Origin: a virus
Reading direction: 5' to 3' (one strand)
Length of the DNA: 22,535 nt
Virus record (IMG/VR): IMGVR_UViG_3300032397_001619
Span: 1-22,535 of that record
Part shown: piece by piece, positions 2,670 through 7,950 of the stretch
Position numbering within the stretch: the first letter of the stretch is position 1
How the letters are laid out: the number at the start of each line of letters is the position of its first letter
Program-made: the position numbers and the translations under genes
Notes under the pieces: generated by a model
Told to the model about the DNA's origin: nothing
The model's database searches: none
What the model saw: the letters and a program-made list of their open reading frames with translations, nothing else

Positions 2670-2715
2670 GAATTACTGGTAGGACTTATTGGTGAACCTT
2701 CTTGAGGCCAGAAAC

Positions 2716-3144
2716 ATGGCGAAGAAAAAACAGACGGATGGGTGGAAGGCGGCAATAGCGGCGAAGTTCCCGCCACCCAATCAGTTTCATTGGCGTGCCG
2801 GTCCCTACCGCGCCCCAGCGGTCAGGGTCGGTGCGGTGCTGCACGACGAGTACCGGGGCGACCTGGAGGTGGAGGGCATGACCAAGGCTCCGATTCCTTG
2901 GCCGGCAGCCGACTACCGGAAAGGTCGGGGCGAGGGCCTGTTGCCGATCTTGTGCGGCGACCTGGTGCGGGCCGTGTGTGAGGAGGACGAGTTGACCGTC
3001 TCCTACTATTGGGGCGTGACCCGGTATATGGTCGAGCAGTGGAAGCGGACGCTTTCCGGGGCCAAGGACTCCAACGGCGTGTTCGCCGGTCTGGCCTTCA
3101 AGCGGGACGATCCCGAGTTTCGCAAGAGGTTCGGCTACAAGTGA
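2716..3144 (+). CDS. Planctomycete-type HTH-like hypothetical protein
   Basis: The product is 142 aa from the ATG at 2716, chosen because GAGG (2704-2707) lies 8 nt upstream; an upstream in-frame start at 2689/2692 is possible. The motif order is: basic start (MAKKKQ), FPPPNQFHWRAGPYRAP, an IPWP motif, PILCGDLVRAV (about residues 83-93), a Trp-containing HTH-like segment (YYWGVTRYMVEQWKRTL), and KRFGYK at the end. From memory, multi-copy Gemmata-type hypotheticals share the HW-x-PYR-x-P, GP/API-PWP and LCGDLVRAV-x-E-x-x-x-x-V-x-x-WGV-x-x-x-V-x-x-W pattern. A sequence-specific DNA-binding role is likely but unproven. The 3' end and stop codon are part of a 17-bp tandem repeat. Confidence 0.7.
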   Translation: MAKKKQTDGWKAAIAAKFPPPNQFHWRAGPYRAPAVRVGAVLHDEYRGDLEVEGMTKAPIPWPAADYRKGRGEGLLPILCGDLVRAVCEEDELTVSYYWGVTRYMVEQWKRTLSGAKDSNGVFAGLAFKRDDPEFRKRFGYK

Positions 3145-3176
3145 GGTTCGGCTACAAGTGAGGTTCGGCTACAATG
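3126..3176 (+). repeat. 17-bp tandem repeat spanning a stop codon
   Basis: The unit GAGGTTCGGCTACAAGT is present at 3126-3142 and 3143-3159, and a third copy with a changed end lies at 3160-3176. It contains the last sense codons of the upstream gene and, with the next unit, its TGA. It was probably made by replication slippage. Similar but shorter duplications occur at the 3' ends of the two preceding genes. Confidence 0.85.
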
Positions 3177-3253
3177 TGATGCACGCCGACGAATTAAGTC
3201 GATGAATTGACCTGCAAGTTTCTCGTCTGGCGTCCCTGCTTTGGTCGTGACTT

Positions 3254-3471
3254 GCAGAAATGGACCCAAGGACCACGGACTACATGACAAAAGATTGAAT
3301 TGACAACTTGAAATGACGCGAGAGCGTCAAGTTTCTGCCTTCCCAGAAAATTACCACGGTTGAACCTTCGGGTTCTTGAAGAAGAGAAGCAGCTACTTGG
3401 CTCACGCTCCCCGCTTGGGGGAGCGTCGGGCTGGGTGCTGTTCTCTTCTGGCCCGTGGTAAGGCTTCTGGG
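3254..3471 (+). ncRNA. Candidate structured RNA (leader or sRNA) with GNRA and UUCG hairpins
   Basis: Many complementary segments fit one nested RNA fold. An outer helix GCAGAAA (3254-3260) with TTTCTGC (3332-3338) encloses a TGACGC-GAGA-GCGTCA hairpin (3314-3329, GNRA loop). Next comes a closing helix CCCAGAA (3342-3348) with TTCTGGG (3465-3471), stacked on TTACCACGG (3351-3359) with CCGTGGTAA (3453-3461). Inside are a GAACC-TTCG-GGTTC hairpin (3362-3375) and a long arm: AGAAGAGAA/TTCTCTTCT (3380-3388, 3441-3449), CAGC/GCTG (3390-3393, 3437-3440), a G-U-rich helix 3395-3403 with 3428-3436, and ACGCTCCCC/GGGGAGCGT (3404-3412, 3418-3426). G-U pairing supports RNA rather than DNA structure. The family is not recognised. 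It ends in a terminator abutting the next gene's ribosome binding site. Confidence 0.65.
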
Positions 3472-3502
3472 GAGCGGGCTCGGTTCCGGCGCTCCCTTTT
3501 TT
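3470..3502 (+). terminator. Intrinsic terminator / possible attenuator
   Basis: GGGAGCG (3470-3476) and CGCTCCC (3490-3496) form a perfect 7-bp GC-rich stem with a 13-nt loop, followed by six T (3497-3502). The SD of the next gene (GAGG, 3506-3509) begins 3 nt after the T-run. The left arm shares G3470-G3471 with the closing helix of the structured RNA, so the two could compete. That is the layout of an attenuator or riboswitch expression platform. Confidence 0.75.
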
Positions 3503-3517
3503 GTTGAGGCGATTCAA

Positions 3518-3889
3518 ATGGTTGACCCCGATAAATGCGATCAATGTGCGGCGATCGGTCACGCGAGGGTGGTGACAACCGATGCTGACGACGACATCAT
3601 TCGTGAGGAATTGAAGAGACGTTCCGAGTTTGATAAGCAGCACAAGAAGGCCCTGCTGCGGCTGATGACCCGGCCGGAAGCGCGAGAAGGGGATCAGGCA
3701 TGGCAAAGGACGCGGGTAGTAGGCGAGACCGCGCGAGAGGTAGAACGCCGCATGGCCTTTGACGAGCATCACCCCGGCATCTACAAGACCGCCGAGGAAC
3801 GACAACAGGCGTATGCGGTCTTCAATCCTACGACGGTCCTGGACCAGTACGAGCAATCTGGCTTGAGGCCGTTCAATCCCAGCGAATGA
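3518..3889 (+). CDS. Hypothetical protein, 123 aa, downstream of structured leader
   Basis: The start is ATG 3518, with GAGG at 3506-3509 eight nt upstream; the frame is open further upstream, but that region is the structured RNA. The protein begins with a short Cys pair (CDQC, residues 7-10), followed by a charged, helix-rich body (residues 25-95) rich in Arg/Glu, and ends in FNPSE. There is no signal peptide or membrane segment, and I do not recognise a family. Its position directly behind a terminator-like hairpin suggests that its expression is conditional on the RNA at 3254-3502. It overlaps the next frame by an ATGA (3886-3889). Confidence 0.65.
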   Translation: MVDPDKCDQCAAIGHARVVTTDADDDIIREELKRRSEFDKQHKKALLRLMTRPEAREGDQAWQRTRVVGETAREVERRMAFDEHHPGIYKTAEERQQAYAVFNPTTVLDQYEQSGLRPFNPSE

Positions 3890-4158: not shown

Positions 4159-4170
4159 TGTTAAGGGCAT

Positions 4171-4204
4171 CGAGCAGGTGAAATCCTGGTGCTGGCTCGG
4201 TTTT
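4171..4204 (+). terminator. Weak possible terminator
   Basis: CGAGC (4171-4175) pairs with GCTCG (4195-4199); an inner AG/CT extends the stem with a bulge. It is followed by GTTTT. The stem is short and the T-run has only four bases. The position, after a small-gene run and directly before a promoter at 4209, is suitable. Confidence 0.3.
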
Positions 4205-4592: not shown

Positions 4593-4633
4593 AGATGATA
4601 GATAGCACGCATAAACAAATTGAAGGCAGCACC

Positions 4634-5419
4634 GTGAGCATCATCTTGAAGAAGTATGTCGCCTATTATCGGGTCAGCACGAAGAAACAGGGCAGAAGCG
4701 GCCTCGGCCTCGAAGCCCAGCAGAAGGCCGTCCGGGCGATGGCCGAGCGCAACGGGGCCACGATCATCGCCGAGTACGTCGAAGTTGAGACCGGCAAATC
4801 GGCGACCCGGCCCAAGCTGTTGGAAGCGATCCATCACGCCGGGTTGACCAACGCCACGCTGGTGGTCGCCAAGCTGGACCGGCTCGCCCGCAACGCCTAC
4901 TTCACTCGGACGCTCAAAGAGTCCAAGCAAAAGTTCACTTGCTGCGACAACGAGCACGCCAATGACTTGACTATCGACCTGCTGGCCGTGATTGCCGAGC
5001 ACGAGGCGCGGGCCATAGCGACCCGCACGAGGGAAGCCCTGGCGGTCACGAAAGAGCGCGGCAAGCTGCTGGGCTCCGCACGGCCCGGCCACTGGGACGG
5101 CCGCGAGGATCGGCGGGCGTTGGGGTTAAAGAAGTCGCAGCCGTTGGCAGCGATTTCCAATTCCCAGAAGGCAAAGGCCCGCTATCAGACGGTGCTCGTG
5201 CCCGAAATCAAACGCCGCCGCGAAGCGGGTGAGTCGCTGGTGACGATTACGGCCTGGCTCAATGAGCAAGGCTTCAGGACACGACCCACAAAGCGTTGCC
5301 CCGAGGGGAGCATCTTCACGCCGAAGATGGTCTGGCGGTTGATTGACCGCTACCTGGGCAAGGAATTGCTGGGCAACATCACGCTGAAACAACCGGCGGC
5401 CTGTGCCGCCTGCAACTAG
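4634..5419 (+). CDS. Serine recombinase (resolvase/invertase family), intact active site
   Basis: The product has 261 aa from GTG 4634, which has GAAGG 7 nt upstream and aligns with the start of the paralogue at 1751; the upstream ATG 4595 would add 13 unconserved residues and lies at the promoter. The catalytic domain has YYRVSTKKQ (Arg13, Ser15), then LDRLAR (Asp82, Arg83, Arg86) and AEHEARAIATRTREAL, typical of the resolvase N-terminal domain. The C-terminal third ends in a recombinase-like DNA-binding segment (MVWRLIDRYLGKELLGNI). It should catalyse strand exchange through a phosphoserine link. It is much shorter than large serine integrases and lacks their Cys-rich region. The stop overlaps the ribosome binding site of the SprT-like gene. 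Confidence 0.88.
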   Translation: MSIILKKYVAYYRVSTKKQGRSGLGLEAQQKAVRAMAERNGATIIAEYVEVETGKSATRPKLLEAIHHAGLTNATLVVAKLDRLARNAYFTRTLKESKQKFTCCDNEHANDLTIDLLAVIAEHEARAIATRTREALAVTKERGKLLGSARPGHWDGREDRRALGLKKSQPLAAISNSQKAKARYQTVLVPEIKRRREAGESLVTITAWLNEQGFRTRPTKRCPEGSIFTPKMVWRLIDRYLGKELLGNITLKQPAACAACN

Positions 5420-6510: not shown

Positions 6511-7950
6511 ATGAGCAACTGGTTCGATGTGGACAAGGCCGGCTTGGCGAAGCTGGTGGCGAGCAAGCCCAGGGCGTTCATCGTCTATGAGCTACTGCAA
6601 AACGCCTGGGACCAGAACGTCACTTGTGTGGATGTGACGCTGGAGCCGGTGGCCGGCACGCGCAATGCACAGATTACCGTGGCGGACGATGACCCGGATG
6701 GGTTCGCGGACCTGCGGGACGCTTATACCTTGTTCGCCGAGAGCCGAAAGAAAGCGAACGCCGAGCAGCGGGGCCGCTTCAACCTGGGCGAGAAGCTGGT
6801 CTTGGCCCTGGCAAAGGCCGCCTGCATCGAAACGACAACCGGCGGCGTGCGGTTCGACGAACAGGGCCGCCATGCCTCGCGTCAGCGGCGGGACTCCGGC
6901 TCTTTGTTCCGTGCGACGCTCCACATGACGAAAGCCGACCTGGAAGAGATCGACCAGGCCGTCAAGCGACTGATTCCGCCGGCCGACGTTGCCACGACCT
7001 TCAACGGCCGCATCCTGGAACCTCGCTTCCCAGTGGCTTTCTTCAACGAAGTCCTGCCGACCGTCGTTGCTGATGAAGAGGGCGTGCTGCGGAAGACCAG
7101 CCGCAAGACGTTGGTGCGGGTCTACGACCCGGCCGAGGGCGAGACGGCGATGCTCTATGAAATGGGCATCCCGGTGGTCGAGACAGGCGACCGCTTCCAC
7201 GTAGACGTGCAGCAGAAGGTGCCGTTGAACATGGACCGCGACAACGTGACGCCGGCCTACTTGCGGACGATCCGGGTGGCGGTCCTGAACGCCACCCATC
7301 ATTTGATTGACAAGGAAGACGCCCCGCAGACGTGGGTGCGGGAGGCGTGCAGCGACGAACGGGTCCAGCCCGAGGCGGTCAAGGTGGCCATGACTCTTCG
7401 CTTCGGGGAAAGTGCCGTTCGTTACGATCCTTCGGACCCGGAGGCGAACAAGCGGTCAGCGGCCGAGGGGCGGCCTATCGTCTATGGTGGGAATCTCACG
7501 TCGGCGGAATGGTCCAACGCGAGCCGGGCCGGCGTGTTGCCGGCGGCCGGCATCGTCACCCCGAGTCTGAAGCCGTACTCCCCTGACGGCGATCCGCTCG
7601 ACGTACTTCCCGAATCCGAGTGGACGCCGGGGATGCGGCGGGTAGCCGCTTACGCCGCCTCCGTTGGCCGTGAGTTGCTGGGGTGCGAGGTGGATGTTGC
7701 CATTGCCCGCGAGCCTGGTTGGCCGTATGGGGCAACCTACGGCAAGGGTCGGCTGGTGTTCAACCTGGCCCGGTGCGGCCGGGCGTTCTTCGAGCACGGC
7801 ATCACGGACGACGTGAACGAACTGCTAATCCACGAGTACGGCCATCATTACGAGGGCGACCATCTGAGCGCCGACTATTACAAGGCCCTGTGCCGGGTCG
7901 GCGCTCGCATGGTTCGCCTGGCCCTTGATGAACCGGAGTTGTTTCGATGA
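6511..7950 (+). CDS. GHKL-type ATPase with C-terminal HExxH metallopeptidase-like domain
   Basis: The product has 479 aa from ATG 6511 (GAGG at 6501-6504); an ATG at 6493 would add six residues. The N-terminal region has the Bergerat-fold motifs in canonical order: an N box with Glu27, Asn31 and Asp34 (ELLQNAWD), a G1-like DDDPDGF (59-65) and a G2-like RGRFNLGEK (87-95). The middle has a sheet-rich stretch like the transducer part of Hsp90/MutL-type ATPases. The C-terminal end has LIHEYGHHYEGDH, giving HExxH at 441-445 with Glu442. ATP-driven conformational change coupled to a Zn-protease domain is inferred. It is cytoplasmic. The next small gene overlaps by ATGA. It is paired with the related protein at 8208. 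Confidence 0.75.
   Translation: MSNWFDVDKAGLAKLVASKPRAFIVYELLQNAWDQNVTCVDVTLEPVAGTRNAQITVADDDPDGFADLRDAYTLFAESRKKANAEQRGRFNLGEKLVLALAKAACIETTTGGVRFDEQGRHASRQRRDSGSLFRATLHMTKADLEEIDQAVKRLIPPADVATTFNGRILEPRFPVAFFNEVLPTVVADEEGVLRKTSRKTLVRVYDPAEGETAMLYEMGIPVVETGDRFHVDVQQKVPLNMDRDNVTPAYLRTIRVAVLNATHHLIDKEDAPQTWVREACSDERVQPEAVKVAMTLRFGESAVRYDPSDPEANKRSAAEGRPIVYGGNLTSAEWSNASRAGVLPAAGIVTPSLKPYSPDGDPLDVLPESEWTPGMRRVAAYAASVGRELLGCEVDVAIAREPGWPYGATYGKGRLVFNLARCGRAFFEHGITDDVNELLIHEYGHHYEGDHLSADYYKALCRVGARMVRLALDEPELFR

Follow-up and report, generated by a model that had tools for sequence, protein, structure and literature searches.

Positions 3302-3502 (+) of the window encode a real structured RNA with evolutionary support. 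The window is the whole stretch of DNA analysed (22,535 nt), a 22.5 kb linear IMG/VR virus record with terminase, portal and tail genes. The RNA represents a new family within the structured noncoding RNAs of phages and falls into no curated RNA family tested. Its fold includes a pseudoknot, it occupies a variable slot of phage genomes in the manner of an accessory cassette, and it is conserved independently of 3518, the small gene that follows it in the window. We lean towards reading it as a stand-alone accessory phage RNA gene of about 200 nt, which would have its own promoter and terminator and act in trans.

A structured RNA family in seven phage records

The segment 3254-3502 has a minimum free energy of -113 kcal/mol, compared to -83.3 +/- 4.9 in dinucleotide shuffles (z -6.1), and none of 200 shuffles equalled it. 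When a sliding fold scan was run over the window, 3300-3499 (+) was the lowest of 276 segments, with a z of -7.1. The original prediction of an undescribed structured RNA held up, given strong covariation and a scan of Rfam 15 without a match. At gathering thresholds the window had no match in Rfam 15 and the related loci matched only tRNAs. Permissive scans gave only sub-threshold chance matches. Bacterial 6S RNA and the riboswitches of Rfam, which are independently transcribed or leader RNAs, share a closing helix and a long arm with the RNA described here, but it matches none of them at gathering or permissive thresholds. No published description of this RNA was found in a literature search confined to open papers. 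A tiny ORF within the RNA was rejected as a gene; its frame is not kept in members L023 and L122, where the loop of the first hairpin is one nucleotide shorter, and therefore the RNA is not coding.

Relatives were reached through the neighbouring proteins, A1 (2689-3144) and terminase. Homologues of the RNA were found in six other phage records, representing five distinct sequences that are 65-82% identical to the window's; the copies in G017 and G018 are identical over the stretch compared. The family thus comprises seven records and six distinct sequences, with pairwise identities of 61-82%. DNA similarity to the window was 83% over 223 nt in G015, 70% in G011 and 72% over 137 nt in G017/G018. 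The copy in G014 was spotted by eye, and the copy in G038 matched covariance model R1, built without G038, at 112 bits (E 2.6e-27).

Searching the remaining records with R1 gave no further convincing matches, and a direct DNA search of named phage and plasmid collections found nothing. The terminase had a single distant match among GTDB representative genomes, at 25% identity, from which no host could be assigned. R1 had no match in 59 bacterial genomes of the phylum of that match, which served as a rough specificity control. DNA patterns made from the conserved blocks were also tried, and every new match checked was due to chance. Two folded regions in the shared slot were rejected as members: that of L001 (z -1.7) and that of L029, at 7060-7380 (-) with a z of -4.5, which has a different, terminator-like hairpin of 15 bp.

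Conserved helices and a pseudoknot

The elements of the RNA and its flanks are as follows.

3290-3295 (+): -10-like box ahead of the RNA, reading AAAGAT here and TAAGAT or TAGGAT in the other five members
3302-3502 (+): conserved structured noncoding RNA, about 200 nt, with covariation; R1 match of 176.9 bits, a score that is not independent because the window belongs to the training set of R1
3314-3329 (+): P0, 5' hairpin with a GAGA loop; 100% of cells paired, no two-sided changes
3335-3347 (+): 5' strand of P1, the closing helix, partner 3466-3477; compensatory changes in CCCAGAA/TTCTGGG
3351-3357 (+): 5' strand of P2, partner 3455-3461; two-sided changes in six of seven pairs
3362-3375 (+): P3, hairpin with a UUCG loop in the window; 100% of cells paired, three of five pairs compensatory
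3380-3449 (+): P4, long arm; 29 pairs, 13 of them two-sided, 93% of cells paired
3450-3465 (+): P5, pseudoknot hairpin 3450-3453/3462-3465; 96.7% of cells paired, four of five pairs compensatory
3470-3502 (+): terminator-like hairpin GGGAGCG...CGCTCCC plus T6, by direct reading; equivalent in six members

Most of the fold had been anticipated. The GNRA-capped hairpin has its GAGA loop at 3320-3323, the UUCG-capped hairpin reads cUUCGg with the loop at 3367-3370, and both the junction and the long arm are present. Within this arm, complete pairing of 3395-3403 with 3428-3436 needs G-U pairs, as can be read from the sequence. The P0 loop is GNRA in the window, L101 and L104, GAGT in L102, and only 3 nt in L023 and L122.

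Compensatory changes in homologues, the check proposed with the original prediction, were then counted. In alignment A5, which holds the six members, standard pairs make up 94.9% of cells, and two-sided changes occur in 29 of 60 nested pairs, a count biased toward the structure because A5 was fitted to the covariance model. Shuffles of A5 gave 12.1 two-sided pairs, and sliding the partners gave 2-8 pairs with 39-46% of cells paired. A model-free MAFFT alignment of four sequences already had 23 of 53 pairs compensatory.

The P5 pseudoknot was absent from the original prediction. It closes a six-base loop formed by the 3' strand of P2, and the helix has five pairs in members other than the window. 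Slid controls gave 0-2 compensatory pairs, compared to the 4/5 observed. Since the 5' strand of P5 is unpaired in the nested model, its covariation is independent of that model. P2 and P5 may form simultaneously, as in a kissing loop, or alternately. A further candidate, helix X, between the right strands of P4 and of the terminator hairpin, pairs 60/60; it was set aside, as this comes mostly from the shared GGGAGC/GCTCCC and from the terminator's upper stem.

Boundaries of the RNA and its genomic slot

Sequence conservation begins at a TARGAT box and runs on into GACAACUUG. In five members this box precedes the conserved start by 4-11 nt; the window has AAAGAT instead. Conservation starting at this box suggests that the RNA most likely begins near 3302, excluding the outer helix from 3254. 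The start had been placed at 3254, about 48 nt too early, and the outermost GCAGAAA/TTTCTGC helix drawn from there is not conserved among members. L101 carries a full sigma70-like match, CTGACA-N17-TAAGAT, and by eye L104, L023 and L122 have TTGCAC or TTTGCA 16-18 nt from the box. The -35 is poor in the window and L102. The window's box is weak and a promoter scan made no call there; by homology with the other members, it would function as a promoter.

At the 3' end, the hairpin was confirmed as described, with a 7-bp GC stem (3470-3476/3490-3496), T6 at 3497-3502 and 3 nt between it and GAGG (3506-3509). A generic terminator scan, which considers loops of 3-8 nt only, did not call it. In all six members the 3' end is a GC hairpin with a T-rich tail, consistent with a putative intrinsic terminator.

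The RNA lies in a slot with these neighbours in the window.

2689-3144 (+): A1 gene, left border of the slot, by conserved gene order
3518-3889 (+): p3518, small downstream gene, 123 aa; by tblastn, G015 and G011 have relatives that follow the RNA, and L024 has one where the RNA is absent
4595-5419 (+): serine recombinase gene rec2, right border of the slot (PF00239, E 3e-23)

Eighteen loci have recA1 and A1, and most also have rec2 and an SprT-like gene beyond the variable slot, giving the conserved order recA1-A1-slot-rec2-sprT. The slot is gene-free in L131 and L132 and holds other genes elsewhere. The RNA occupies the equivalent slot in all seven records, in both orientations: on the + strand in the window, G015 and G011 and on the - strand in G017/G018, G014 and G038. 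An 11-bp inverted repeat (3209-3219/4568-4578) was considered as the borders of an invertible segment and rejected, since its second copy is missing in relatives.

Several other features of these loci were recorded. A conserved box, TAAGGGCATCGAGCAGGT (4162-4179), lies between the slot and the recombinase gene and is also found in L020, L024 and L112, with variants in L021, L022 and L023; it could be a recombination or regulatory site. Record G015 (103 kb) has two recA1-A1-rec2 modules (L024 and L112) and two terminases. One of its slots holds the RNA and the other holds p3886-like and p3518-like domains in one frame. An RNA carrier, G011 (94 kb), has an array of 25 tRNA genes (L108, 22-2781). 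A slot ORF in L004, at 5153-5356 (-), resembles a Flp-type pilin, judged by sequence. The A1 protein is predicted to have a beta domain and, after it, helices that resemble a helix-turn-helix; its matches to LuxR/NarL-type and CdnL/CarD domains are weak and non-significant, and its one named-phage relative is in Acidovorax phage AP1. Tandem duplications at 2500-2527 (14-nt unit), 2661-2693 (13-nt unit) and 3126-3179 (17-nt unit) each span a stop codon, those of the consecutive ORFs recA1, a 47-aa ORF and A1. The window has six near-perfect tandem duplications, overlapping rows included, compared to 0-1 per shuffle in five shuffles.

Gene 3518 and the possible roles of the RNA

Relatives of p3518 follow the RNA in three of the six distinct members (the window, G015 and G011), and none was found after the RNA in L104, L023 or L122. 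The gene is intact in two members, start-less in one and absent in three, the start-less copy being that of G011, where a one-base deletion leaves no start codon in the expected place. L024 lacks the RNA but has a p3518-like domain, which follows a p3886-like domain in a shared reading frame. Searches of Pfam, PHROG, NCBIfam and PADLOC gave no match for p3518, and its model, predicted to be all-helical (pLDDT 76), had no significant PDB fold match. Protein patterns used to look for relatives in IMG/VR gave none that were confirmed.

The region had been predicted to be a riboswitch or attenuator before this small gene, which is not the best reading of the family. As a cis-acting leader of 3518, P1 would hold the terminator's left arm; a ligand or protein stabilising P1 would allow read-through, and loss of P1 would lead to termination. 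The arrangement in the window fits such a leader, as 3518 starts 15 nt past T6 with a Shine-Dalgarno sequence between, and the order RNA-terminator-p3518 is common to G015 and G011. The overlap of the closing helix with the terminator's left arm also exists, though it covers about six or seven bases in the covariation-supported structure, not the two originally given. The P1 3' strand and the terminator's left arm compete in four of six members (the window, L101, L102 and L104), where P1 is favoured by 7.7, 5.1, 3.3 and 0.8 kcal/mol. The overlap is energetically neutral in L023, where no competition is measurable, and is lost in L122. Therefore, a switch is not a property of the family, and could operate in some members. 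The RNA does not lie upstream of and co-oriented with the gene throughout, as a riboswitch of 3518 would: three of the six members lack the gene and have the RNA inverted. Members of the gene family are also found where the RNA is absent, and the G011 copy lacks its expected start codon. We consider a cis-acting leader unlikely.

Another possible explanation is a toxin-antitoxin pair. RCd22, from Clostridioides difficile phages, has its own promoter and a Rho-independent terminator before a gene and acts in cis and in trans (PMC12373285). Type III antitoxin RNAs (ToxI, CptI and TenpI) combine a pseudoknotted RNA, a terminator and a small gene (PMC5086642). The layout of putative promoter, RNA, terminator and gene in half of the members resembles AbiF and type III loci, but the defining features tested for were not found. 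By analogy, the RNA would be an antitoxin that silences the 3518 protein, the terminator would leak slightly into the toxin gene, and gene-less copies would be orphan antitoxins, a scheme that suits an RNA kept in six of six members beside a gene kept intact in two. The AbiF RNA (RCd22, RF03085) is likewise a phage-borne structured RNA just ahead of a gene, but it is about 90-115 nt long, with two abiF motifs and an AbiF toxin gene, whereas the RNA here is about 200 nt and its gene is unrelated and not always present. It had no RF03085 match at the gathering score, and no AbiF (Abi_2-type) protein is adjacent. ToxI, CptI and TenpI are tandem repeats cut into short units, in contrast to the single non-repetitive unit here; the only tandem repeats found nearby are the 17-nt array at 3126-3179, outside the RNA. 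The 3518 protein showed no kinship to ToxN/AbiQ, TenpN or CptN by Pfam, NCBIfam, PADLOC or PDB fold and lies outside every toxin or defence family searched. Together with the RNA-less p3518 relative in L024, these data make an antitoxin role improbable.

The RNA could instead mimic or titrate away a defence or processing component of the host, much as RNA anti-CRISPRs do, which is a special case of the stand-alone gene. Phage RNAs with such a use are known (PMC10651486), and this role would suit a stand-alone gene that sits in an accessory slot behind a promoter-like box of its own. Racrs are, similarly, solitary phage noncoding RNAs behind a promoter, but they imitate the CRISPR repeat, whereas the RNA here has a large multi-helix fold (PMC10651486). 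Since no resemblance to known RNA families was found, we give this idea very little weight. GOLLD and ROOL are ornate phage-encoded RNAs whose function is not known, and they frequently neighbour tRNA islands (PMC12286853). A tRNA array is likewise found within a few kb of one member of the present family; however, those RNAs are much longer, GOLLD often exceeding 800 nt, and their Rfam models had no match here.

A stand-alone RNA gene is the explanation we favour, with some reservation. The RNA cassette is carried in the variable slot between A1 and the serine recombinase gene, and would be transcribed from its own putative promoter and ended at its own intrinsic terminator. It folds into the closing helix, the P2/P5 pseudoknot, the small hairpin and the long arm. 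More speculatively, its action may be in trans, on a factor of the phage or the host, as a structured RNA that binds protein. A conserved -10-like box, a T-tailed hairpin and conservation independent of 3518 and of orientation speak for a small RNA gene. Against it, the window's own putative promoter is weak, the window, G015 and G011 have no space for another promoter before p3518, and the P1/terminator competition in four of six members is what a switch would show. In addition, a rough search for complements of the RNA 5' tail found no coding-strand excess. A more ambitious and rather doubtful version is a new phage RNA machine, pseudoknotted and swapped in and out of a recombinase-bordered slot either way round, that would disarm a host protein or a companion toxin, for which 3518 is one candidate.

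Few phage RNAs have complex conserved folds, and among these are several that proved to act as decoys or antitoxins or to build large RNA assemblies. The present family contributes an accessory type that is compact and pseudoknotted, moves independently of its neighbour gene and occurs in both orientations within one slot. With carriers, non-carriers and empty slots all found within one phage group, the search for its partner is tractable.
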